Assembly: GCF_036711975.1 (NCBI RefSeq)
Contig: NC_091971.1
Coordinates: 15,073,501-15,137,500 of the forward strand
Reading direction: 5' to 3'
Source of the DNA: Onthophagus taurus
Taxonomy: Eukaryota > Arthropoda > Insecta > Coleoptera > Scarabaeidae
DNA length: 64,000 nt
The position numbers and the translations under genes were made by a program. Positions 16,507 through 64,000 of this stretch are shown here, in pieces. The number at the start of each line of letters is the position of its first letter. The stretch's first letter is position 1. The notes beneath the pieces are model-generated. The model made no database searches and had not been told where the DNA came from. It saw nothing but the letters and a program-made list of their open reading frames with translations.

Positions 16507-19500
16507 ATGGCAAAAACTGCCCCTTCGCCGATAGATGTTGTGGTAATATTCTATTTCGTAAAATTAACATATCTTGTTAACATAATTCCCTCCCATAGGA
16601 TTTTCAATTCAAATTACAGTGCAAATTGAAAGCTTTTGAAAATGATAGCCATGAAACGTTCAAATTACCGTGTAGTTTAGTTTGTTCTGCGAGCAGATAT
16701 GGTTTATTATTCGTCGGGACTTCAACGCCAAAATTTCAAGGTACATAACCTCAAATTTTTGTACCAATAATTAATTATATTATTTTAGTCATTCAGATTC
16801 AAGATATACAAAATTACGCTGTTAAAGATGGTCATGTTAGTAATTATAAAAGAAGATACATTAATTTACCCAGTAATCCAAGATATCTTGGTGTCAATTG
16901 TGACTCAACAAAACTTTGTGTTATTGTTGAAAAAGATGGTTGTGTTAAAGCCGTAATATATGATGTAGTCTCATTTTTAAAACAAGTAAATAAACATCTA
17001 CAAAGAAAATGTAAAAAATTAATATAATTTTAAATTATAGAATGTTGTAATTTTGCAAGAAATTCGTCTCTCAACCACACCAGGAGTAAACATTCTTGAT
17101 ATATGTTGGAATCCAGGTGTGCCATCAATGTTAGCAGTTTGTAAAGATGATGGAAGTTTAGGTTTATATAATGTTAAAGAAAATGGTATTGAAATCAAAG
17201 AATTACCAAAAACAACAGGTTGCACATGTTCATGTTGGAGCCCCAAAGGGAAACAACTTGTAGTTGGAACTGCAAATGGCAAATTAACACAATACAAACT
17301 CGATTTGCAAGTAGCAAAAAGTATTAATCCACCCCCAATTAATGGAAATCCACAACCAATAAGCTTACAATGGATTTCAAATTATCAATTTATTGGTGTT
17401 TATAAAACTGTAGGAGAAGATGTACAAATGAGTTTAATTGTTGTTGATGCTCCTAAAGCTGGTGAAACAACATATACAAATTATGATGATGTTTGTTATA
17501 GTTATGGCAACTCTAGACCACATCAATTTTATATGTTACAACAACCTCTTTGGTAATTAAATATGTTTATTTAAGGTGTATGTGTGAATTAAATAATTTA
17601 TTTTATTAGGAATATTTTACTTGTGGCATCCTCAAATAGCATGGAAGTTGGTGTGATGCATTTAGATAAAGATTCATGGACACAATGGATATTAACAGAT
17701 TCAGCTAGAGCTGAACTTCCTCTAAATGCTATAAAACAAGACACTCTCCCTGTTGGATTAGGATTTGATATATCATCAGTTAAACCACTTCCGTGGGGCG
17801 AAGGAGAATTACCACCAATGCCATATTTGTTTTTGTTATCTCATCAAGGGGTTCTGTGCTGTTTCTCTATAATTAATTTGAAAGAAGGGGTGCCTAAATT
17901 GTGTACACCACCGGAACCTTTAACTGATCTTAGTGGATTAGTTCACTTTACAATTGGAGATAATGAAAGTGTTCGTATTCAAACAACATCAACAAACCTT
18001 GTAAAACCAACGCCTGTGGTGAGAACAAGCATTTTTATTCAGAATATATTTAGGATTAAAATTTTTTTAGGCTCAAATTGGATTACAACAACAGGCAAAA
18101 ATTCCCGCTTTTGGAGCTTCAACTCCACCTGCATGGGGCAATCTTACTTCTCCAGTATCAATTGCGACTCAAAAAACGGCCCAAACACCTACATTTTTTA
18201 ATAAGCCTGCTACTGGCGTTCAAAATATTTTAGGTGCACAACCTCAAACGATTATTACACCTGTTATTGAAATCAAAAAAGCGGAAAATGTTCAAGAAAA
18301 CATTCAAAAACCGATTATTCCACAAACAATGGTAAGTTTTTAATATACTAAATGGAAAATCTTGGTTATGTTTAAATAAAAATGATTATATTTTTCAGCC
18401 TCAAACAACCCCTGGTTTGCAACAACAAAATGCGCTATTTGGTATGACTACGAAAGCGCCATCTCAACCTTCATGGGCTTTTACTCCTCCTCAAACAACA
18501 TTAGTCCCCCAAAAACCGCCACAACCTCCCACAACAACATTTTTCAACAAACCCATTACACAAAATATTTTTGGTACTCAACCTCAACCAGTTGTTGAAT
18601 CACAAAAAGTTGATTCTACCCAAGAAAATCTTCAAAAAGCCTTTGGTCCTAAAACAGTTGTGAGTGCAGTGGAACCAAAAGAAACATCTGGTATCAAAAC
18701 TCCCCCAGCTGGAATACCCGCCATAAATGAGGAAACGGAAAAATTACTTGCCCAAATGATGAAAGAAGAATGTATTAATTTAGAAATGGAAATCAAAGTG
18801 TTAATGGCAGGAAGTAATATTAAGATTGATTTTGGGGCTGACTCTGAAACTGTGAGTTTCATTGAAGGGGCTACAGCCTTACAAGATTTTTTAAAAGAAA
18901 TGGATGAAACTAGTTCAACTCAAGCAGCTGAGATTCATGCTTTAAAACAAAATATGATTCAAACTTGGGTGTGGTATGAAGAAGCAAGATCCAGATACGC
19001 AACTTATAAAGATCCAGCTTTAAAATCATTGCTTGCACTTCAACCTTTAGACGCAGCGTCTGAAAGGAAATTAGACGAAATTCGCCGCATGATTTATTAT
19101 TTAGAGTCGCAATTAATGCAAGCTAATTCGGCTTTGGACGACCAATGGGACGCTTTTCAATCATCTTGCAAAAGAAAAATTAACACAAAATCTTTAAGCA
19201 TTGAATCTATTTATCAAGTGATGGTAAAGCAAAATGCTACGTTACAAAAACAGATTTATATTCTTAAAGACATCTCAATGAGGATTCGGGCGAAATTACG
19301 AAGTTTAAACGCACCGCGTTTATTGGTTAGTTTGGATAATACAGAACCGCTTGAGGAGCAACTAAAAAGTTTACACATGGAGCCAAAAGATTTGATGGAA
19401 TTACGTTACGAAAAAGTGTTTAAAAAACAGCGGAAATTGACGAAGGAACGGGAGGATAAATTGAAAGCTTGTTTTCAAAATGGAAATGTTTCACATGTTG

Positions 19501-22500
19501 TTGTGCGAAAACCGCAATTAAACAGTTTCATGCAAATGTCTGGATTAGGTGTGATTCCTTTTTCTCCAATAGCGCCAAAGAAAAATCAAGGTGAAGTAAA
19601 AAAACATATCGATTTCGTACAATCAACACCTTTAGTAAAAGTAACCCAAGAAAAAGAAAATGTGTCAAGTCCAGCTGTTGTTAATTTATTTAATAAACAA
19701 GAACAACAAAATGTTGGAGGTGATGTAAAGACTTCTGCATTTGTGCCAATGGTAAACACAAAGAATAATTTGTTTGGTAATTTAGATCAAAACATTTCTA
19801 CTAAGCAACAGAACTGGCAAAAACCTGTTGGGGAAACCGTTTCTAAACCACCAACGTTTAATTTGGTATCACAAAATACAAACTTCATGATCCCCAAATC
19901 TTCTAGTGGAAATGTAGATGCAAATACGAATCCTATATCGAAATCGAGTACTTTCCCGCAATTTGGAGCTTCACCCCAACCTTTCACTCTCCTAACAAAT
20001 AAAATACCTGAAAATAAAACACCATCAACTACAATTGAGTCTAAAACACCAGAAGCTACAACTTGGGATAATACCAAACCTTTTTCATTTTTTGGACAAG
20101 GATTGAAAACGACTTCTGAGAGTTCTCCCTTTAGTGGGAATTTATCTAAATCATTATTTGGTGATAAATCAACTCCTTCATCTCCGGATGTTAACAAACC
20201 ACCTAATTTTGGGAACACACCGCAAAGCGGCAACGATTTAAAAACAACTTTCACACAAAATGTTGCAAAAACCGCTCCAAGTTTATTTAATCAAGGTTTT
20301 ACAACAACCGTTTCAACAACACAATCAGAAACAAAAATGTTTACTTCACCAAGTACTTGGGTTGTTACAAGTACTAATCAAGAAAAAGCAAGTATAGTTT
20401 CAACAAAACCAACTTCAAGTAATGTTACGGTACAACCAAGTCTATTTCCTACTTCAAAATTAGAGCAAACAACACCTCAAACACCACCCACGCCTATAAT
20501 TAATATACCTACTTTTAGACAATCAACCACTACTGGCTTAACTTTTGGTAGTACTACAATTACTTCTTCAGTATCAGTACCTGTTTCAACAACAAAACCC
20601 CCTCCAATTGTCCAATCAATCCAATCAACATTCCCAACTACCTCTCCAGTTGTCCCAACAGATTCAGCAACTACAACACCAAGTACTACAACTTCAGTTA
20701 TGTCAGCAACCACTACAACGTCTACAGCAACTACAGTGTCAACCCCAATGTTTGGAGTGACTACAACAACTTCAATATTTGGTCAAAAACCTTCAATTTT
20801 CAGTCAACCAGTTGCAGAAGGACAATCAATATTTGCAAAAACTGCTTCAAATTTTGTCCAAAATACACAAGCTACCACTGCAAACAAGACCCCTTCGATA
20901 TTTTCAAATACAGCAATCACATCAAGTTTTAAATTCACTAATGTTGCTGGAGAAACACCTTTTGGACAAACTACTGGTACAACTCCGGCAGTTGCGGACC
21001 AAGCCCCAACTATATGTGAATCGGCCACATCACCATCTTTTGGACAAACCCCGACTACAGGTAGTCCTGCGCCATCAGTTTCAAGTACTACTTCTATTTT
21101 TGGGCAAGCCATTTCTGCACCAACTAGTTTCGAGCAGATTACTCCTCCACCTTCAACAACTATACCTGCTTTTGGACAAACTACTCCTAGTACTTCGATT
21201 GGTTTTGGATCAACGGCGTTAACTCAAACATCAACGTCAAGTGTTTTTGGTCAAACTCAAGTTAGTTCAACTCCAAGTGTGTTTGGACAAGCAACTACAG
21301 TACCACCTAGCGTTTTTGCCCAAACTATAACTTCAACTTCCCCGTCAAGCGTTTTTGGACAGACAGTATCTACGCCAAGCGCTTTTGGTCAAACAACTTC
21401 TGTGCAAAGCGTTTTTGGGCAATCCAATGTTTTCCAACAGAAAACTTCACCTTCTAGTATTTTCAGTTCTACACCTACATCTGATTTTGGAAAAGTAGCA
21501 AACCCCGCTTTTGGTGCAGCATCAACTACGTCTACAGTGTTTGGCCAATCTCAACAACAACCCACGTTCGGTCAACCTAATACTTTATTTGGTGGTACAA
21601 CTACTGCTTCGATATTTGGTCAACCGACATCATCTTCTTCTATTTTTGGTCAACCTACAACCTCTACTACTTCTATTTTTGAACAACCGACAACGTCAAC
21701 TTCTTCCGTTTTTGGGCAACCGACAACGTCAACATCTTCTGTTTTTGGGCAACCAACAACGTCAACTTCTTCTGTTTTTGGGCAACCAACAACATCAACT
21801 TCTTCTGTTTTTGGGCAACCAACAACGTCAACTACTTCTGTTTTTGGTCAACCTATAACGTCAACGTCTTCTGTTTTTGGTCAAGCAGTAACATCAACAC
21901 CATCAGTTTTTGGCCAAGCGGTAACATCAACACCATCAGTTTTTGGTCAAAGCTCATTTGGTAGTAATTCTATATTTAAGTCTTCGACAAATAGTGTTTT
22001 TGGTGGATCTTCTCCATTTGGATCAACTCCCACTACTTCATCTGCATTTGGATCATCGTCTCCGTTTGGAGCTTCTAACGTTTTTGGTAGAAACACAACA
22101 AATAATGTCTTTGGTAAATCAAATTTTGGTACGTCGGATAATTTAAATTTTGGAAATCTGAGTACGGGTGCGAACCCAACTCCGGCAACATCGTCATCTG
22201 TGTTTGGTGGCTCATCTTTTAATACGTTTCGAACAGCCGATAAGGAGCAATTTGGAGGAACATCTACCAACGTATTTGAACCTCCAACGACATCAACTAC
22301 ACCCGTTTTTGGAGGTTCTCTTTTTAATAAATCCACACCAGCATTTGGAGCGCCAGCCACATTCGGTGCCGCCCCCACTTTCTCTCAACCTTCAGCGTTT
22401 GGATCTTCGTTCAGCAATACTTTTGGTAATGCAAATCAATCGGCGGGGCCATTTTCTGGGGGGGCAAGCACTCAAACCGTTAGTCAAAGCGGGTTTGGGT

Positions 22501-22866
22501 CTCCCACAACTTTCCAAAAACCAGCTTTCGGTTCTCCATCCGCATTCGGAGCGCAACCTACAGGATTTGGATCTCCTGCATCTTTCGGAGGAGCCGCTTT
22601 TGGAAATGCACCTGCATTCGGAAGTCCTAATCGAGTTTTTGGTAGCAACGAAGGTTTCGGAGCTGCACCACAACAACAAAGTTCTACTTTTGCAAATTTA
22701 GCTAATCAACAAACTATAGGATTTGGAAGTGTTGCGCAACAAGCTGCTCCTGTAGAAAATATGCAACAGCCTTCATTTACTGGGTTAGTTGAATATTAAA
22801 TTTGTTTAAAATTTATTTCTAACATGGTTTATTTTTAGGGGATCATCATTTACAAGTTGGCGTTGA
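16507..22866 (+). CDS. Nup214: Nucleoporin Nup214
   Basis: Eight coding exons: 16,507-16,542; 16,599-16,740; 16,789-16,985; 17,041-17,552; 17,610-18,018; 18,071-18,331; 18,399-22,783; 22,839-22,866. All borders are GT-AG and phases agree, giving 1,989 residues (human 2,090). Residues 1 to about 430 read as the N-terminal beta-propeller (DFQFKLQCKLKAF, LLFVGTSTPKFQ, LDICWNPGVPSML), which docks the RNA helicase DDX19/Dbp5. A predicted coiled coil near residues 690-890 would bind Nup88/Nup62. From about residue 980 onward come many FG dipeptides set in Ser/Thr/Pro/Gln spacers. The last exon adds the tail GGSSFTSWR. The protein lies on the cytoplasmic face of the nuclear pore and serves mRNA and CRM1 export. 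AATAAA lies at 22,954-22,959. The very short last exon is inferred from splice sites and the family-like FxxWR end. Confidence 0.95.
21600..21955 (+). repeat. 33-bp tandem repeat encoding FG repeats in Nup214
   Basis: Inside the large Nup214 exon an array of about ten 33-bp units encodes the 11-residue unit SVFGQPTTSTS with small changes (IFGQP, VFGQAVTSTP). Several adjacent units differ by only one or two bases, so the array has expanded recently. Copy number may vary between individuals and assemblies may collapse it. The units stay in frame and supply FG dipeptides, so length change would be tolerated. Confidence 0.9.
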
Positions 22867-33469: not shown

Positions 33470-34946
33470 CAGGGTGATTCGGGAGGAAATGGAAAGATTT
33501 TAAGGACATGTCTAGGAAGCTAAAATAAGCAAAATAAGCCCATATGTTCAAATCCGATTTTCATTTGTTTGAGATATTTTGAACAATAATAATTTCAAAA
33601 TTAAAGCAAAATTTATTACTAAACTAACAAACCAAAAAAACAAGTAGCATTAATTCACATTAAATTTTCGAAAACTCCACCACCCACTTCGATACACTTA
33701 TTTGCGCGTTTATAAATGGACCTGGTAGCCAGTTTCAGTGAACGATGATTCGCTCTAATGAACGCCGCAGCATTAAGAATACGATCTAGTAGCGCATCCC
33801 TTGTGTCCACTTTCCTAGCATAAACTAAGGACTTCATCCATCCCCAAAGACAAAAATCTAGGGGAGTGAGGTCCGGTGATCTCGGTGGCCAACGGTGCGG
33901 GCCTCCTCTGCTAATCCAGCGATCGCCGAAATGCGTATTTAGAAAATTCCTCACATTATTTGAATAATGAGGGGGTGCTCCATCATGTTGGAAGATCATA
34001 CGTTGTCGAATATTCAAAGGTACATCGTCCAATATTTCCTCTAAATGGTCTTCCAAAAAATGTAAATAACCTTCCCCAGTAAGACGGCCATCCAACACAA
34101 AAGGACCAAACAACTGATCATTTAGAATACCGCACCATACATTAATACTAAACCGATGTTGGAAATTGTGTTCTTGCGTGGCATGGGGATTTTCGTCCGA
34201 CCATCGATGATTATTATGGTAATTGTTAATTCCATCTCGAGTAAATTGAGCTTCATCAGAAAATAATATGCATTTAAGTAATCTTCTGTTTTCACGAATC
34301 CATTGACAAAATTGTAGTCTTAATGGATAATCGCCTTCTTGGAGATTTTGTACTTTCTGCAAATGAAAAGCGTTTAAGCCTTGCCGCTTTAATGTTTTCC
34401 AAACCATTGTTTGTGGAATTTCAAATTGTATTGCCATGCGCCTTGTACTTATCCCTGCATTATTTTCTACAACATCCAGAATATTTTCTTCATGTTCCAA
34501 ACTGAGCCCTTGCTGTTTTTCAGAAACAATGCTTGCACTTGGGAACATTCCACTTTCGCCAGCACGTGTAAAAACAGTTTGAAACACTTGCCTATTAGGA
34601 ATTCTTCGATTCGGAAAACGACGTCGATACTCTTCTACTGAAAGAACAGTATTACCATTACAAAAACCATAAACAAACACCATATCTGCATATTCTCTAT
34701 GACTGAAAATGTGAGGCATTTTTATTATTTCGTAACAATTACAACTATCACTTTAATTAACATTTTGTTTCAAATTATCATATAGGATAACGTTGTCAAA
34801 CATAACTTGATTAACTTTTTAAAAAGAAAAACCTAATTATCTCGGAAACAAATGAAAATCGGATTTGAACATATGGGCTTATTTTGCTTATTTTAGCTTC
34901 CTAGACATGTCCTTAAAATCTTTCCACTTCCTCCCGAATCACCCTG
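33470..34946 (-). mobile_element. Complete mariner-type DNA transposon
   Basis: A 1,477-bp element bounded by terminal inverted repeats of about 101 bp (33,470-33,570 and 34,846-34,946) that differ at about one position, starting CAGGGTGATTCGGGAGG, and flanked by TA on both sides (33,468-33,469 and 34,947-34,948), the target duplication of Tc1/mariner elements. It contains one uninterrupted transposase gene on the minus strand. Near-identical ends and an open gene mean a recent insertion, possibly still mobile. It sits in a LINE remnant. Confidence 0.95.
33655..34719 (-). CDS. Mariner-family transposase, DD41D type
   Basis: An uninterrupted 354-residue frame with its own ATG at 34,719 (MPHIFSHREYADMVFVYGFC). 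Residues 1 to about 120 form the helix-turn-helix DNA-binding part (YRRRFPNRRIPNRQVF, then GISTRRMAIQFEIPQTMVWK). The catalytic acids are D155 (ILFSDEAQF), D246 (FQHDGAPPH) and D288 (RSPDLTPLDF); 41 residues separate the last two, the spacing called DD41D within the mariner superfamily. The enzyme cuts and pastes the element by binding its inverted repeats in the nucleus. All three acids and the WVPHEL-equivalent region appear present, so the gene could be functional. Related broken copies lie at 49,166-50,742 and 51,410-52,560. Confidence 0.95.
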   Translation of the reverse strand: MPHIFSHREYADMVFVYGFCNGNTVLSVEEYRRRFPNRRIPNRQVFQTVFTRAGESGMFPSASIVSEKQQGLSLEHEENILDVVENNAGISTRRMAIQFEIPQTMVWKTLKRQGLNAFHLQKVQNLQEGDYPLRLQFCQWIRENRRLLKCILFSDEAQFTRDGINNYHNNHRWSDENPHATQEHNFQHRFSINVWCGILNDQLFGPFVLDGRLTGEGYLHFLEDHLEEILDDVPLNIRQRMIFQHDGAPPHYSNNVRNFLNTHFGDRWISRGGPHRWPPRSPDLTPLDFCLWGWMKSLVYARKVDTRDALLDRILNAAAFIRANHRSLKLATRSIYKRANKCIEVGGGVFENLM

Positions 34947-48689: not shown

Positions 48690-51390
48690 TTTGAATTGTG
48701 CATGAACAGCTCCTCCTCCTCCTATAGTGCTGCGCAGTCGTCCACTGTGGAATCCTGGCTACCTTCATTTTCAGTCTCTGCATTCTTATATCCACATCGA
48801 CTGTATATTCCCATCTTCTCCGTAGTTATCCCTTCGGTCTTAATCCTTGCATTTTCCTATTTATTAACACTTTCGCGGACAGAAGTGCATATGCAGTCAA
48901 TTGGTGCGTTTATGGGTGAACTATCGATATCATAGTGGCCGCGAAAATGTTAACGTTCTAAGTAGCTTTCCTTCTTCCATATTGGTAATATGCCCAACCC
49001 ATTGCAGCCTCAGAATTCTTATGCAACTGGATACCTTTCCTTCATTGAGCTGGAGATATAATTCATGATCTTCCTCTCGAATATATTTACATATTCTGGT
49101 AGTTTTTGTGTTAATGGCCACATTTCGCAGCAATACGTAAGGATGGGTCTTATTATGGTCTTATACAGGTGATCCATTTAACATAAAAATTATCCTAATA
49201 AGAGTTGTTCTGTTCTATTTTTGACGAGCATTTTTTCACGACCAATCTTTTAAATGGTATATATTTTTGATTGCAAAATCTGAATGTATAGATAAAAGTA
49301 TACTAATTTAAAAAAAAATTTAATTCAAACTTCAAAGATTTTTTTGTTCAATATTTCTGCACGCATTTCTTATGTATCTCTTTCATGTTTTCTGGTGTAG
49401 TCGGTATCCCGATCTAAAGCTTTATTGGTAATTTGTGAAAAATGTGCAAGACACCCATCATTTTGCAGCCATATAGTTTGTCTTTGTTCCAAACTCAAAT
49501 CTTCTAGTAACGGTGGTAAGGCGTCATCTATAAAATTTCGGTACTTTTTCCCATTCAGCACACCATAAAGTAAGGACAGATCAATCAAACATTAACCGAT
49601 CAAGGGCGTTAATGTTCTACCTCACGTAACTATCTCGTATTTTCAACACTCCATTAGTGCATGTTATGTCTATTAACTAGTCCGTGATTTGTAAAAGTAG
49701 ACTCATCCGAGAATAGCAGAAGTTGAGGTTCAGCCGCATTCATTCTTGTGCCCATTGACAAAATATTAACCGATTTTGAAGTCACCTCCATGAAGGTTTT
49801 GATGCAATGACATATGGTATGGGTGATACTTCTTGCGCTTTAATATTCTTAAAATGCTGGTGTTCGATATTACGGCATCAATTGCAAGTCGTCTAGAGCT
49901 AACTTGAGGGTTTATCTCAATGCTAGCTAATACCGCAATTTCCTTTTCTTCCATAGTTACAGTTGCTCCCCGAGTTCCTTTTCCTGCTTTCACATTTTCA
50001 GTGATAGTGAAATCATTTACAACTCTGTAAAAGGCACTTGAAGGCATATTTCGATCAGGAAAACGCGTTCGATACAAAACTATGCTATCAGCAACTTTTT
50101 TGTCACTTCCTCCGTACATAAAAATCATGTGGACTTTTCTGCCACGCTTAGAGTATCCATGATGTAATACATATAATACATACATTATAATACATACATA
50201 TAATCTAATGACTTAATTTAAACACTTTGCCTTGATGTAAAACGATGGAATGAATTCAGAATTTGTAGCGGAGCAGTTTTTATGCTAATTTAGTTTTACC
50301 TGCTACATTTTAAAACAATCGGAAATTTCGACATAAGCAGTTCCACGAATTCTTGTATTTTATGTCTTATTCTATTATCACTTATAAAATGGACAAAGGT
50401 CGGAACTTTTTAAAGCTTTTTCCAAAGGTATATCCAACAACCCAGGTCACCCGATGTACCTTTTTGGATTTTTTTGTTGAGCGTTCTGAAATAGATTTTT
50501 TTAGACGCCCAACCCAACCCAACTTTTGTCCATAGATTCAGATTTTGCACTCAAAAATATAGAGTGCCATTTAAAAAAATTGGTCGTGACCTTCATATTA
50601 CTTTCAAAATAAGGTCAATGTCTAAAATGTTATCATCATATGGGTTCCCCCTTCGTAAGAACAATTTTTATTTCGATAATTTTTATGTTAAATAAACCGT
50701 TTTCCAGATAATCGCTTGTCTTAAGTTAAATGGATCATCCTGGATATTCTGAGTTTTATGCTTTTGCTTTTAAATATGTTTGCGAGAACAAAGTAAGCTT
50801 TGTTGACAAGCGCGATTCTCCATCCTCTTCACCAAGAGCTTGTCAGATCCACCCTAAGATATTTAAACTCTTAGAGGTTCGATTTGGTCTTCTGTAATCT
50901 TGTTGGTCGCGGAACATGAAACATGACTTTTTTTTCCTTATTAGTGTTTTCGCTGCTTCCTTCAACGTTTCATATGTCTCCTCTGCTTCTTTTCTTGTTT
51001 TGCTCATGATATTAATATCGTCTGCGTATGCAGCCAGTTGGACGGTTTTATTAATAAGCAGGTTGACTTTTCCTATTTTCATCTTCTTGATAAAGTATTC
51101 AAGTGTTAAGTTTTATAATGTTGGGCCAGCCCATCTTCCTACTTTAGTCCTTGGGCGATGTTAATTGTTCCTGTTAACTAGTTTTGTAAGCAGACCTCTG
51201 TGTTTGTTAGTGTGGCTTTAACAACTCTTATTAGTTTTGAGGGTATATTAAATTTTCTAAGTATTTTAAATAACTGTTCTCTGTCAACAGAGTCGTATGT
51301 TTGTTCTCACTCAAGATCTGGCCCCGCGGTATACCACGTACAGCAAGTGTAGGGTCTTAGAGAAGTTGATTTTCGATCATGAATGTATTT
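48690..51390 (-). mobile_element. Non-LTR retrotransposon remnant with a mariner inside
   Basis: Read downward on the minus strand: YDSVDREQLFKILRKFNIPS and LIRVVKATLTNTEVCLQN (51,290-51,180), a preserved catalytic box QLAAYADDINIMS with KTRKEAEETYETLKEA (51,060-50,940), then a mariner insertion (49,166-50,742), then YKTIIRPILTYCCEMWPLTQ (49,165-49,100), LRLQWVGHITNMEEGKLL (49,010-48,960) and a last piece RRRWEYTVDVDIRM near 48,800. This is the order of an RTE/CR1-like reverse transcriptase. Stops and frameshifts are frequent. The plus-strand open frame at 48,420-48,935 is partly antisense to it; 48,210-48,690 upstream is unassigned. Confidence 0.75.
49166..50742 (-). mobile_element. Decayed mariner inserted in the LINE
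   Basis: The ends are inverted: CAGGTGATCCATTTAACATA on the left and, on the right, the complement of CAGGATGATCCATTTAAC. The left end lacks about 35 bp that the right end keeps, as if lost between short direct ATTTAAC repeats. Transposase pieces on the minus strand are VLYRTRFPDRNMPSSAFYRV and VSSRRLAIDAVISNTSILRI (50,185-49,766) and YGVLNGKKYRNFIDDALPPL with LQNDGCLAHFSQ (49,588-49,370). They align with the intact transposase at 33,655-34,719 (RRRFPNRRIPNRQVF; FQHDGAPPHYS) but belong to a different, older copy. Confidence 0.8.
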
Positions 51391-53367: not shown

Positions 53368-54436
53368 ATGATTTCCTCTTTCTCGTTCCTGGTAATACAA
53401 AAAAATCATACTTAAAAATTTTTTCCATCTTTATTTATCATTTAGATTTTTTATTTGCTCATTTTATCGTCGAAATCCGAAGATGTTCGTTTGGATATAT
53501 TACCACCAGAAGAAGCCAAGCAAATAATCGATTCCAAAGATCAAACTTTGAAATACGCACCAAAAATTGATTCGAACGTCCCAGCTGTTAGAGTGTTAGG
53601 AAAAACTCCAACGAACGTTTTAGAAGACATTTACTTGGCCAATCAATATCACGGTCAAGATGGACTTGGAAGTTATTTATATGGTTATTCAGTACCTGAT
53701 ATCGCTAAAACTGAGAAAAAACAAGCTGGAGGTGATCTAAAAGGTTCCTATCAATACATCGTCGATGATGGAAAAGAAATTAAAGTCGAGTATTGGGACG
53801 ATGGTACAGGATTTCATCAAGTTGATAATACTGCGGAGATAGCACCCAAACAAGTTGATGATTCACCAGATGTTAAAGCAGCTAAAGAAGAATTTTTTAA
53901 AAGATGGCACGAAGAGGCACAAAGAAATAGTCAAGGATCTAACCCGTAACTTTATTATTTTTTTATTTAATTATTTTTATTAATTCTATAACACACTTTT
54001 TAGACCTCCAAATATACCAGGATCAGCACACCCAGGTCAAAATTATCCCCATGGCGCTCAGGGTTCAGGATTTAGCTCGAATTTAGCTGGGCAACAACAA
54101 CCGGGACAAGGAGGGGGTCAATATCAACAACCTAATTTGCAATCTGCCACTGGACCTGCTCAAGTTTTAAATCAACGTCCAAATTATGGCCAACAATCGC
54201 CGAATGATAATACTGGTGATGGAGGTAATTGGAAGTATGAACCAACACCGGAAGAACAAGGACCTCCACATGGTTTCTTTTATAACGTTGATTACCCTGT
54301 TGGAATTATTGTTAATAAACAAGGACAACAAAAAAGGGAAACACTTCAGGATATTTATGTAAAAAATAAAGAAAATTTTGAAAGGTCCGTTTTTGAAGGA
54401 ATGGGAAATGCTAGCGGATATCAAGCTCATGGATAA
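53368..54436 (+). CDS. Secreted cuticle protein, RR-like
   Basis: Three coding exons, 53,368-53,391, 53,446-53,945 and 54,004-54,436, encode 318 residues. The first eight codons sit alone and start the signal peptide MISSFSFLIFYLLILSSKSE, the usual first-intron position of insect cuticle genes. Near residues 104-140 the segment GDLKGSYQYIVDDGKEIKVE followed by YWDDGTGFHQ resembles the chitin-binding R&R core (GxYxY...DG...VxYxAD..GF), though diverged and without the usual Pro end. A second, Gly/Gln-rich part (GQQQPGQGGGQYQQPNLQS) and a last block (GFFYNVDYPVGIIVNKQGQQ) follow. Expected role: structural protein binding chitin in the exoskeleton. AATAAA lies at 54,501-54,506. Assignment to RR-1 or RR-2 is not possible by eye. 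Confidence 0.82.
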
Positions 54437-58055: not shown

Positions 58056-61000
58056 ATGACTACATACTTGCAAAAGAAGTCCCGAATGTTTCGGGACATA
58101 AACGATCCTATTCTACCGCTTCCCATTCGATCGGAAGCTCGGATGAAAAGGTATCCTTCCGCGACAGATGCGAGAGCATGGACCTTGGAAAGGGAAGACC
58201 GCCGACAACATATTCTTGAATTGATGCTGAGAAATAAAGCAGTTCAACTTGGTCGTTATATTCCTATGGAAGTCTTAATTGATACGTTAATGTTAAACAA
58301 AAACATGGAAATAGATGAACTAAGGAGACAAATTGAAGAGTTAAAGAAACTTTTGGAAGACTGCGAAAAGTTTTTATCCCCAGAACAAAGAGCAGAAATT
58401 GATCGATTGGTAAGAATATTTTAACACTTATACGCCAAATATAATTTGTTATACAAATTTTTTGAATCGATTATTCCAGAAAACATACTAATTCAGGTTA
58501 TGTTTATAGCTTTTGATTTGACAGTTAACCTCAATTATTTGTTAGTGGAATACGTCATACAGCATATTTTTAATAAAAATATGATCTATATGATAAATCA
58601 TTAATCAAATCACTAAAAATTTATGTTGGTTTAGAAAGATAAACTTGAAGAAGTGAGCGATGACTTTGAAGATTATGGTGAAAGCACAACCACTCCTGGG
58701 ACATCGGGCAAGCATGGTGCAACATCGGGAAGCGAGTCTGAAGGCCCAGGAGGTTGGAAAGATGGGAAACCCGGACCTTGGAAAACGGAAGACGGGAAAA
58801 AAGTCAAAGCGGGCGATAAACCGGGAGAGTGGCGTATGCAAACAGAAAAAGGATTAAAACCTGGAAGTAAACCGGGAGAACTAGTCGATGAAGACGGCAA
58901 TCCGGTATCAGCGGCGGAGTATACGGCTGCGGATGGCTCGAAAATAAGACCAGGTGGTTCTCCGGATGAATGGGTCAAAAGCAGTGAAGTTCCTCTTAAA
59001 CCTGGTGGAGCTCCAGGAGAATTTGTTAAACCGGATGGAACTGTGGTGACATCAAAGGAATATCTTTTAGATCATCCAGGAGGAGCAGGTGGACCGGGTG
59101 CTGGTGGACCAGGTGGTGGTGGACCAGGTGGTGGTGGACCAGGTGGTGGTGGACCCGGTGGTGGTGGACCCGGTGGTGGTGGACCGGGTGCTGGTGGACC
59201 CGGTGGTGGTGGACCGGGTGCTGGTGGACCGGGTGCTGGTGGACCGGGTGCTGGTGGACCGGGTGCTGGTGGATCGGTTGCTGGTGGAACGGGTGCTGGT
59301 GGACCGGGTGCTGGTGGACCGGGTACTGGCGGACCGGATGATGGTGGATCATATGCTGGTGGACCGGGTGCTGGTGGACCGGGTGCTGGTGGACCGGGTG
59401 CTGGTGGACCGGGTGCTGGTGGACCGGGTGCTGGTGGACCAGGTGCTGGTGGACCTGGTGCGGGCGGACCGGGTGGAGGAAAAGAATATCTCACCGATGA
59501 TGGTAAAAAAATGCGCCCTGGAGGGAAACCTGGAGAGATGACGTTAACAGAAAGTGAAGAAAAAGTAAGACAAGGTGCTAAACCCGGCGATTTCATTGGG
59601 TCAGATGGAAGATCTATTAAGAGCATGGATATGACTACTGCTGATGGAAAACATGCTAAACCTGGTGGTAAACCAGGTGAGTGGTTAGTAGAAGATGAAC
59701 AATCATTACATCCTGGTGCCAAACCAGGAGAGTATATAACTCCAGATGGAAAAGTCGTCAAAGCAGGTGGACGACCTGGAGAATTTACTAGTGCTGATGG
59801 GGAACATGTAAAGGCTGGCGGTAAGCCAGGAGAATGGCGCTTGGATGATGGAACAACAGTTCTGTCTGCAGAAAGACCAGAAGAATTCGTCGCGGATGAT
59901 GGAACGTCAATACGTGCCGCTTCGCTCCGTACAAAAGATGGAAAAGAATTAAAACAGGGTGGGAAACCAGGTGAATGGTTAACTGAAGATGGAAAACCAG
60001 TAAGGGGAGGGACAGTTCCTGGTCAATTCGTCACAGACGATGGTGGTTCTATGTTTGCAGATAGACCATCAGAATTTATGACAGCTGATGGAAAGAAGGT
60101 AAGAGCAGGACCGAATCCAGGAGAATGGATTCTGGAAGATGGAACAATAGTTCGACCAGGAGAAAGACCCGGTGATTTTGTTACTGCTGATGGTAGACCA
60201 ATTCATTTAGGAGATTTTGAAGATAAAGCGGGAGGTCGAGCTGGTGATGATCGAAGTGGCGATTGGGAAACTGATACGGGAGAAGTGGTTCATGCTGGAG
60301 ATACACATGGAAAATGGGTAACGGACTCTAAAATGAAATTACGCCCAGGGGATGACTACGGTGCATTTATAACTCCAGACGATAAGATAGTCCACACTAA
60401 AGAAAGACCAAAGGAATTTGTCAGTACCGCAGGTGATCATGTAAAAGCAATAAGCGATAAACCGGGCGAATGGGTGATGGATGATGGTACCATTGTTAAA
60501 CCGGAGGATCATTTGGACGAATACGTGGATACGGCTGGTAAGATTCTTCATGCGCCTGAGATCGTAACCGACGATGGACGCCATTTAAGACGAGGATCTA
60601 AGCCTGGGGAGTGGATAGATGACAGTGGCAATATTCTTCGAGTTGGATCGTCCACCGGTGAATTTGTTATGGCTGACGGAACGGTATTAAAAGCTAGTCA
60701 TCGACCGGATGAATTTGTTGCTGTAGAGGGCACTAAAATGGTTCACGGGGAAAAGGCTGGTGAATGGATTGAAGAAGATGGCACGGTTGCCATTCCAGCA
60801 GAACGTCCTGGTGATTATGTCACCGAAGAAGGTCAAGAAATTCACTTATCCATAGCAGGAAGCGCTGGTGGTATTCCAGGATTTCGCGACTCAGATATGG
60901 TGGATACTTGTACAGCGAAGAAAATTCCAGCTCCACCTTGTGCACCACCTCCAGTATGTGCTGCTAATAAAGCTATGGAAGGTGGATTACCACCACCATG

Positions 61001-64000
61001 CGCAGCAAAACCAAAACCAAGCGCAGCAACGCCACCACCAGGCGCAGCAACGCCACCAAAACCAGAACAAGTATGCACTGCTATTTGCGCTACCAAAGGA
61101 GCCGAAGCAGCTACAGCTGGACCATCTACAAGCGAAGGAGCACCAGAAGCTGTATCTGAAGTAACACCAGATGCTGTATCTGAAGTTCCAGCTGAAGCTG
61201 CGCCAGAAAGCATACCCGAGGCTGTGTCAGAAGCTGCAGTCGAAACTGAGCTAGAAGCTACACCCGATGCTGCGCCTGTAGCTACACCCGATGCTGCGTC
61301 AGCAGTTTCACCTGAACCCGCACCAGAAGCTCCACCTGAAGCTGCACCAGAAGCCGCGCCAGAAGCTGCACCAGAAGCACCACCAGAAGCTGCACCAGAA
61401 GCTACTCCTGATCAACCTATGTCGAAGTCAGAATTAGATGGAATGAGTAAAGAAGATTTAGTACAGCAAATAATCAGTAAAGATGCTGAAATAATTTCCC
61501 TAAAAACTTCCCTTGCCGTACGCTACTGTTACACCTTTTAAATCAAAAAAAAAATATTAATTCTTTTTTAGGCAAGCGAAGAAGATCGTTTACAACAAAA
61601 AGAAGTATCTGCAAGCGCAATACAAGGTTTAGAGCAATTAAAAGATGCTGTTGATGGTCAATCTTTAGATAGTACTGACGTGGAGGTAAAATACTTCCCA
61701 TTTCTTGTCAAATCTCTACTTTAATTCTTTTTAGATACCCGAAGACGCTAGTGTCGATTTCCTTCGTGATGTAATCACCAAAGGTAAAATAAAAATCAAG
61801 ACTCTTAAGCAGGAACGTGATGGGCTTAAAAGGAAAGTGACTAAACTTGAAGATCAATTGCGCGCATGTGGACAAATTCCAGATGATGTCGATAGTTTCC
61901 AAGACAAGTGTTCGTTATTATCAGAACGCGACAAATTGAAACGTCAAGTATCAACATTAAGCCAAAGAGATCAAAGATCATCTCTTAAAATAAGTGAACT
62001 TGAAAAGGAAATGGGAGATAAAGAGAGAAAAATGGAATGCACTTGCCAAGAACTGGAACAAGTAAAAGCTGAAAGAGATTTATTACGCAGGAGGTCAATG
62101 GAAGTAGGCGATAAAGACCAAGAAATGGAACGGCTTAAGTATCGCGTTAAAGAAGCTGACGTTTTAAGAATAGAAAGGGATCGAATGAAAGCGAGAGTTG
62201 ACGAATTATCAAACATCGAAAATGAATATATGGAACTTTTGAATAAAACAAAAGGTTTTGAGTGTATTAAAGCCGAAAGAGATAAATACAAACAGAAATT
62301 TGAAGTTTTAACTACGTTAGAAAAGGAATGTGAGCAATTAAAATGTCAAGTGGAACGTGCTAAGTCTTTGGATGATGAAAGAAATGCTTTACAACGACAA
62401 GTGAGGGATTGCGAGTGTTGTATAGCTGACCAAGAAGATGAAATCAATAGATTAGTCGCGCATATTGAATGCCTGGCAAAAGGAAGGGATGAGCAACAGG
62501 TAAATTATGTTTTAAACATTCTTTTTTTTGAGAATGTTGAACAAGTGTGGCAATGATTTTTTTAAGTATCTCTTTAAGCTGAGATAAGGTAAGTAAATTT
62601 TTCACATCATTTCCATGAAGTATAAATAAGATATTAAGCCGAATTTCGTTTTTATTGCAAGGAACGTATGTGTGCCGCCCTCGCTGACGCACGAGCAGAA
62701 ATAGAAAAGAAAGATACAATAATAGCTAATTCGGCACAAGAATTAGCAAAAGTTCAAGATTACCTTAAAAACACTATTTCGGATGTCTCCTTTGAACAAA
62801 ATCAACTAAAAAACAAAGTCGATGAGCTTGAAGAAGATTGCGGATGTCTTAGCGCAAAATTAGAAGCAAAGAAGAAAGAATGCGACGATTTGAATACTGC
62901 AATCCAAGATAAAGATCATTTAATAGCCTGTCTTTCTAAGAGTGTGAAAGTGGAAGATATTGAATGTCCGGTTTTAAAATCCTTATTAAGCAAAGATCTT
63001 GAAAAAGATAAAAGCGTTGGAGGAAAAGATAAGAAAGATGGTGAGTGTATATGTGAAGTTGAAAATAAAGATCGATCCGTTGGGGATGGTTCTCGTATTG
63101 CTGCAGAAGAAGTCGCAATTGAAATGACATGCGAATGTGAATGGACAGAGCCACCACAACAACCGACAAAAGATACCGGAACAATTTGCGGACCAAATTA
63201 CTCTAGAAGTAGGGAACCGCAGAGACAATCGAGAATATTACAAGCAGAAAGACCATGGGAAAGTGAAGGACCTGGACAGAGAAAAAATGTAGGCACCGAT
63301 AAGGGATGGGAAAGTGAAGGTGGACAAATTTGTCAATCTCGACCGACTGATGCAACTAAACCCTCCCCGGGTACTGGGAGCCATATCTCTGAGTATTCAT
63401 CTCAGGGATCTCCATGCACATGCGGAGGAACGACTGGGGGAATGGGTTTACCAAGACAAGAAGATCATGGAAATTATGTTTTATGCCCATATTCCAGAGG
63501 AAGAGGTGACACTCAACCGAATGCCGTGATGGCAGGTGAGCAAGAAAGAGATATGAGAAGAGGAATGAATATTGAAAGAGCGATGGTTGGAGCACAAAAT
63601 GTTGTTCCTTGTCCATTTAGGCAACCACAAGTTGGACCACCGCAAGTTGGACAGGGTGCAGGAGGTTACGACCGAAGTTATGAAAAACAGATTTATATGG
63701 AGACTAAAAAGTTAGTGGACATAAATAAAATGGTGCAAGAAAGTAAATCGAAAAAACTGCCTTGTCAACCTTGCACATGCTCGAAGAAATCAAAAACACC
63801 CGAGAGAAGAAAATCAAAATCATCTGAACGAAGACAATCAAAAACTCCTGAGAGGAAGCAAAGTACTCCGCAAAGAGAAAATATATGTTGTGCATGTACT
63901 ACTCAGAATGAAGCCGTAGAAACTACAACTAAAAAAGTCTGTGATAAATGTACATGTACTGATGATAAAACCAAATCAAAGGAAAAACCGAAAAAGAAAC
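58056..64000 (+). CDS. Large repeat and coiled-coil protein, partial at window end
   Basis: Five exons are seen: 58,056-58,409; 58,635-61,517; 61,572-61,685; 61,735-62,499; 62,662 to beyond 64,000; all GT-AG and phase 0, over 1,818 residues so far. Residues 1-118 are basic then helical (IDELRRQIEELKKLLEDCEK). About 167-857 hold some 25-30 units of a 17-residue repeat, DG.x.V.xG.KPGEW, interrupted at 267-400 by a GGPGA minisatellite. Then come a Cys/Pro segment (870-945), a PEAAPEA acidic-alanine segment (945-1045), long coiled coils with scattered Cys (1053-1480) and a Ser/Lys/Arg tail with TPERRKSK motifs and CxC pairs. No signal peptide, membrane segment or enzyme domain. I do not recognise it; such layouts occur in insect sperm-tail or other structural proteins, which is a guess. 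No good upstream coding exon was found; 57,790-57,980 may be leader. Confidence 0.85.
59083..59475 (+). repeat. 15-bp glycine minisatellite
   Basis: About 26 copies of a 15-bp unit (GGTGCTGGTGGACCG and variants) encode GGPGA/GGPGG repeats within the large gene at 58,056-64,000. Neighbouring units are often identical, so the array expands and contracts easily. The unit has no stop in any of several frames, which creates long spurious open frames on both strands here. Confidence 0.92.

Follow-up and report, generated by a model that had tools for sequence, protein, structure and literature searches.

The locus raises the question of what protein is encoded by a long array of degenerate repeats of about 17 residues, and which fold and cellular role such an array could have. 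The window, the whole 64,000-nucleotide stretch of DNA that was analysed, lies on a 33.2-Mb contig (C6) of a 290.8-Mb genome in 33 contigs. On its forward strand, a gene opens with an ATG at 58056, and its first seven exons, joined in frame through GT/AG borders, give a stop-free reading of at least 3,397 codons and a consistent gene model. The seven exons are as follows, in window numbering.

58056..58409, forward strand: exon 1, 118 codons; start codon, basic N-terminus, then coiled-coil-like; GT donor, phase 0
58635..61517, forward strand: exon 2, which carries the repeat array, 961 codons; AG/GT borders, phase 0, no stop
61572..61685, forward strand: exon 3, 38 codons; AG/GT borders, phase 0
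61735..62499, forward strand: exon 4, 255 codons, coiled-coil-like; Pfam matches (coiled-coil-type and other) all below cut-off
62662..67828 (window part 62662..64000), forward strand: exon 5, coiled-coil-like, then a Cys/Lys/Ser-rich region
70712-71319 (beyond the window), forward strand: exon 6, joined in frame by GT/AG
71378-71677 (beyond the window), forward strand: exon 7, joined in frame by GT/AG

The part of exon 5 beyond the window adds 1,276 codons, largely coiled-coil-like. Further coding exons probably lie downstream of exon 7, where open stretches follow, the last of which is CPPC-rich, ends in SREYD and a stop codon, and has an AATAAA downstream (by eye); these stretches, including the CPPC-rich last exon, are presumed to belong to the same gene. 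A reverse-transcriptase-like open frame was also seen by eye within an intron of this giant gene (L008, 7603-8058, reverse strand).

The repeat consists of 34 units in one exon, at 58782-60854, and the 691 residues spanned divide into 549 residues of units and 142 residues of a Gly-rich tract. A preliminary description had proposed about 690 residues of a 17-residue repeat; the repeat proved to be a real protein-coding feature on which selection acts, although its extent is that given here and the Gly-rich residues have to be subtracted. The unit period is 17, with unit lengths of 12-18, and the units are grouped in 11 triplets, in which, by eye, the first unit closes with W everywhere except in T3 (M; 10 of 11 triplets), the second closes with F or Y everywhere except in T1 (L; 10 of 11), and the third has 12-17 residues, being short (12-13) in seven triplets and long (16-17) in four, with long and short alternating from T4 to T11. 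The array is laid out as follows.

58782..59063, forward strand: triplets T1-T2, 17+17+13 residues each; mutual identity 45%
59064..59489, forward strand: Gly-rich tract of 142 residues between T2 and T3; GAGGP/GGGGP pentapeptides
59490..60854, forward strand: triplets T3-T11, 455 residues
59634..60218, forward strand: four-triplet block T4-T7, 195 residues; no gap longer than one residue in its alignment to T8-T11
60219-60266, forward strand: odd 16-residue unit outside the triplets (from the unit list)
60267..60854, forward strand: four-triplet block T8-T11, 196 residues; p 0.005 without correction for a lag of 12 units

Thus the earlier proposal of a two-unit period of about 34 residues, with W and F/Y units simply alternating, gives way to triplets. 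When the order of the 24 units in T4-T11 was permuted, lags 3, 6 and 12 were favoured (p 0.028, 0.028 and 0.005, uncorrected for 12 lags, with T1-T3 and the odd unit excluded), and lags 1 and 2 were not. Identity between triplets ranges from 21 to 57%, and the two four-triplet blocks are 44% identical over 194 aligned residue pairs. A simple history would lead from a unit to a triplet, after which a block of four triplets was duplicated; T6 and T7, the most similar pair (57%), are one long and one short triplet and break the clean long/short phase, which could mean later exchange. Among the 194 codon pairs between the blocks, 38 are identical, 47 synonymous and 109 differ in amino acid; codon positions 1, 2 and 3 are identical at 62, 64 and 37%, and same-residue fourfold sites are identical at 12 of 45, where codon use alone predicts a fraction of 0.26-0.37. 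Since synonymous sites are saturated and the motif is nevertheless kept, the repeat is of old date and is maintained by selection at the protein level. In contrast, the Gly-rich tract is a 15-bp tandem repeat (59088-59475, 25.9 copies) with 91% matches; it sits at a unit border and has KEYL on both flanks (by eye), as if its expansion had begun in a short duplication.

On the array, every Pfam and NCBIfam match stays below the cut-off of its model, and no solved structure in the PDB matches it by sequence, the triplet profile likewise matching none. Within the searches made of Pfam, NCBIfam and PDB sequences, the initial view that the motif has no family name is thus upheld. The papers listed for the motif letters were judged irrelevant. 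Searches of the beetle's own genome with the array, with exon 1 and with that portion of exon 5 which lies in the window returned this gene and one chance match (E 3.2, exon 1 query), with only the best candidates scored, so that distant paralogues could escape; a DNA-pattern search of the same genome gave one forward match, the repeat gene, against two for the reversed control, and so carried no information. Scans of viral contigs with the array and of genome contigs with T6-T7 gave 2 and 166 pattern matches, respectively, none of them a relative. In PHROG, 10 families matched at E 10 or below, most strongly phrog_8324, a phage family of unknown function; within the stretch 59484-60854 (forward strand) it covers 35 array residues at E 1.2e-4 and perhaps reflects the same DG-turn pattern; tblastn of the array against phage records gave two records of one phage at E 6.

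Several other matches were rejected. The Pfam matches of BRCA2, CBM39, Apyrase and Tcp10_C on the array are all below cut-off and were taken as chance. With the whole of exon 2 as query, 25 PDB chains matched (best E 2.5e-4, circumsporozoite protein); their alignments cover the Ala/Pro/Glu region or the Gly tract, and a few extend into the last unit of T2. Plasmid matches (11 records up to E 10 by tblastn, best E 3e-3, Mesomycoplasma) were treated as compositional; one of an Alteromonas plasmid runs over the whole array at about 24% and E 0.1.

The fold was modelled with AlphaFold2 from alignments built from this protein alone, in which certain rows are fragments of others. For T6-T7 (97 residues; 10 rows, 6 distinct stretches), the model has a pLDDT of 70.2 and a pTM of 0.51 and contains 11 strands of 3-4 residues that start 7-10 residues apart, with DG in a short turn and PG/PS in a wider turn (mapped by eye). 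With medium confidence, the array is thus predicted to form beta strands; as for the beta-rich solenoid suggested at the outset, this one model supports the strands, predicted as a string of hairpins, and does not show a solenoid. At E 10 or below, Foldseek matched 272 PDB and 364 viral entries, none of which came down to E 0.001. The top three in the PDB are two designed proteins, one of them at E 0.044 and the other Cake5, with virginiamycin B lyase ranked between them. Among 50 of the 272 PDB rows, the titles name Morn1 (6), the CPAP/SAS-4 TCP domain (6), radial spoke (4), central pair (5), Rhs (4) and teneurin (8), and 18 of 50 of the 364 viral rows are named MORN. Query-normalised TM-scores are about 0.1-0.3, and values near 0.2 indicate that the local hairpin pattern alone is common and the overall shape different. 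The many hairpin-ribbon proteins among these non-significant matches are consistent with a ribbon.

Alternatively, the array could lack a fixed sheet and be intrinsically disordered, serving as an elastic or charged spacer much as elastin-like or PEVK segments do. Its composition (G 14.9%, P 6.6%, D/E/K/R 33% together) would suit such a spacer, as would the low-complexity Gly tract that directly breaks the array and the pLDDT of 50.4 for the 195-residue model of T4-T7 (9 rows, 4 distinct stretches). The disordered spacer is nevertheless unlikely, while retaining a real share of probability, because the aromatic and Gly positions and the unit lengths are kept despite saturated synonymous sites and because the 97-residue model shows regular strands.

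A second alternative is that the array is a far-diverged member of the MORN or CPAP/SAS-4 TCP families by common origin. In PMC3776556, the TCP domain of CPAP is described as a single-layer antiparallel meander of about 20 strands with PDG turns, which binds a proline-rich motif whose prolines pack on aromatics; in that of PMC7725318, MORN1 is described as an elongated hairpin ribbon, with the CPAP G-box as the closest reported fold. The TCP domain (G-box, PF07202) has repeated hairpins with DG-type turns, as in the array's model, and a coiled-coil-like stretch precedes the domain in the TCP gene of the same genome (by eye), as in the repeat protein. These TCP matches lie on contig C16 and presumably represent SAS-4. 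The array unit differs in its second turn, GGKPGE, followed by an aromatic residue, and the array is about three times longer. With regard to the proline-rich ligand of TCP, the linker and the presumed tail of the repeat protein are themselves Pro-rich. It also looks MORN-like by eye, with GEW/GDF followed by DG, but its period is 17 against 23 in MORN. Besides the MORN and TCP entries among the Foldseek matches, a common origin could draw on one hhalign comparison, with the MORN repeats of one protein of the same genome, which scored 15.2 against a maximum of 12.9 in 30 column shuffles; this match has a P of 0.02 and a probability of 2.4%, and the other three targets, MORN pairs (11.0) and TCP pieces (10.5 and 7.4), fall within their own shuffles, the reversed profile scoring higher (8.9) than the forward one for the last. 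Furthermore, MORN (PF02493, cut-off 22.5 bits) is absent among the Pfam matches of the array up to E 10 with HMMER filters on, none of the 34 matches listed in a MORN search of the genome lies at the repeat locus, and Tcp10_C (PF07202) reaches 12.7 bits over 11 residues (E 0.1) against a cut-off of 36 bits. These sequence comparisons did not establish homology with either MORN or TCP, and the array is not filed as a member; common origin appears quite improbable, while by analogy the array may work like the MORN and TCP ribbons.

The rest of the chain bears on the location of the protein. By hydropathy only, the N-terminus is not hydrophobic (KD19 maximum -0.29 in windows starting in the first 45 residues), and the protein is therefore probably intracellular. 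Two linkers follow the array in exon 2.

60904..61095, forward strand: Cys/Pro-rich linker with PPC and PPPC motifs (from the translation, by eye)
61140..61403, forward strand: (APEA)n-type linker, a 12-bp repeat of 22 copies with 61% matches

Coiled-coil families of Pfam match exon 5 (best E 4e-7, each below its cut-off), and the middle of the protein is Cys-rich, with up to 9 Cys per 100 residues. The coiled coils and the Cys/Lys/Ser tail of the preliminary description were thus recovered as coiled-coil-like and Cys/Lys/Ser/Pro-rich stretches, by eye and from these sub-cut-off matches. A secreted cuticle, silk or glue protein, which the Gly-rich tract and a Chitin_bind_4 cuticle gene about 4 kb upstream (53446-53949) might suggest, is very improbable given the N-terminus, the long charged coiled-coil-like stretches and the absence of a chitin-binding match from the four scanned stretches of the repeat gene.

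The sperm tail protein ODF1 and the Mst-CGP proteins of Drosophila are small Cys/Pro-rich proteins with short Cys-Pro motifs. The CPPC motifs in the presumed last exon of the repeat gene resemble them; the likeness is one of composition, and the repeat protein is a giant. On this Cys-Pro composition and the comparison with ODF1 and the Mst proteins, sperm would be the likeliest site of the protein, a tentative assignment.

The best explanation, held at somewhat less than an even chance, is a giant intracellular structural protein with a hairpin-ribbon spacer near its N-terminus, a coiled-coil filament and Cys cross-linking, most plausibly in the sperm flagellum; how its sheet is layered, that it acts as a spacer, its cross-linking and its place in sperm are what we infer, the last of these being less likely than not. 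In this proposal, the array would form an extended antiparallel beta-meander, in which each 17-residue unit may contribute two short strands, around W-V-x and x-V-K-x, with a tight turn at D-G and a wider turn at G-G-K-P-G-E that would be shortened in the short third unit. Near the N-terminus, this ribbon could serve as a stiff spacer or a self-association surface, with its aromatics arranged as a regular ladder. The coiled-coil-like parts could then dimerise the chain into a filament, with cross-links supplied by the parts rich in Cys/Pro and Cys/Lys; the sperm flagellum would be its most plausible site. A more specific version is a long shot: an independently evolved hairpin ribbon, convergent with MORN and TCP, whose Trp/Phe ladder would recognise polyproline, possibly that of its own Pro/Cys-rich linker and tail, to give a head-to-tail, disulphide-locked sperm filament. 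If the hairpin fold is right, the array would add another design of long beta ribbon to those of MORN and TCP, in 34 units with a readable history of unit, triplet and four-triplet block; it would also indicate a large insect structural component, perhaps of sperm, that goes unnamed in the domain libraries searched.

Among the open frames near the gene are matches to Aph-1, Mad3/BUB1, a protein kinase and the insect cuticle family Chitin_bind_4, from which the host was read as an insect. As to its order, Chorion_1 gave no match, which carries no weight since the control genomes gave none either, and (TCAGG)4 was absent from the search result. Elsewhere in the window, transposase-like open frames were seen by eye at 33655-34752 (365 residues) and 49766-50212, both on the reverse strand, and a forward-strand frame of 1,487 residues at 18336-22799, nucleoporin-like by eye, carries SVFGQ/FG repeats with near-identical TSTSSVFGQPT units in tandem. 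In the same genome, the sole COX1 match at E 0.001 is a stretch within a 44-Mb chromosome contig (C1:21446788-21448128), the only internal stops of which are 11 TGA codons (tryptophan in the mitochondrial code); it is either a nuclear copy of recent origin or an insertion introduced by the assembly.
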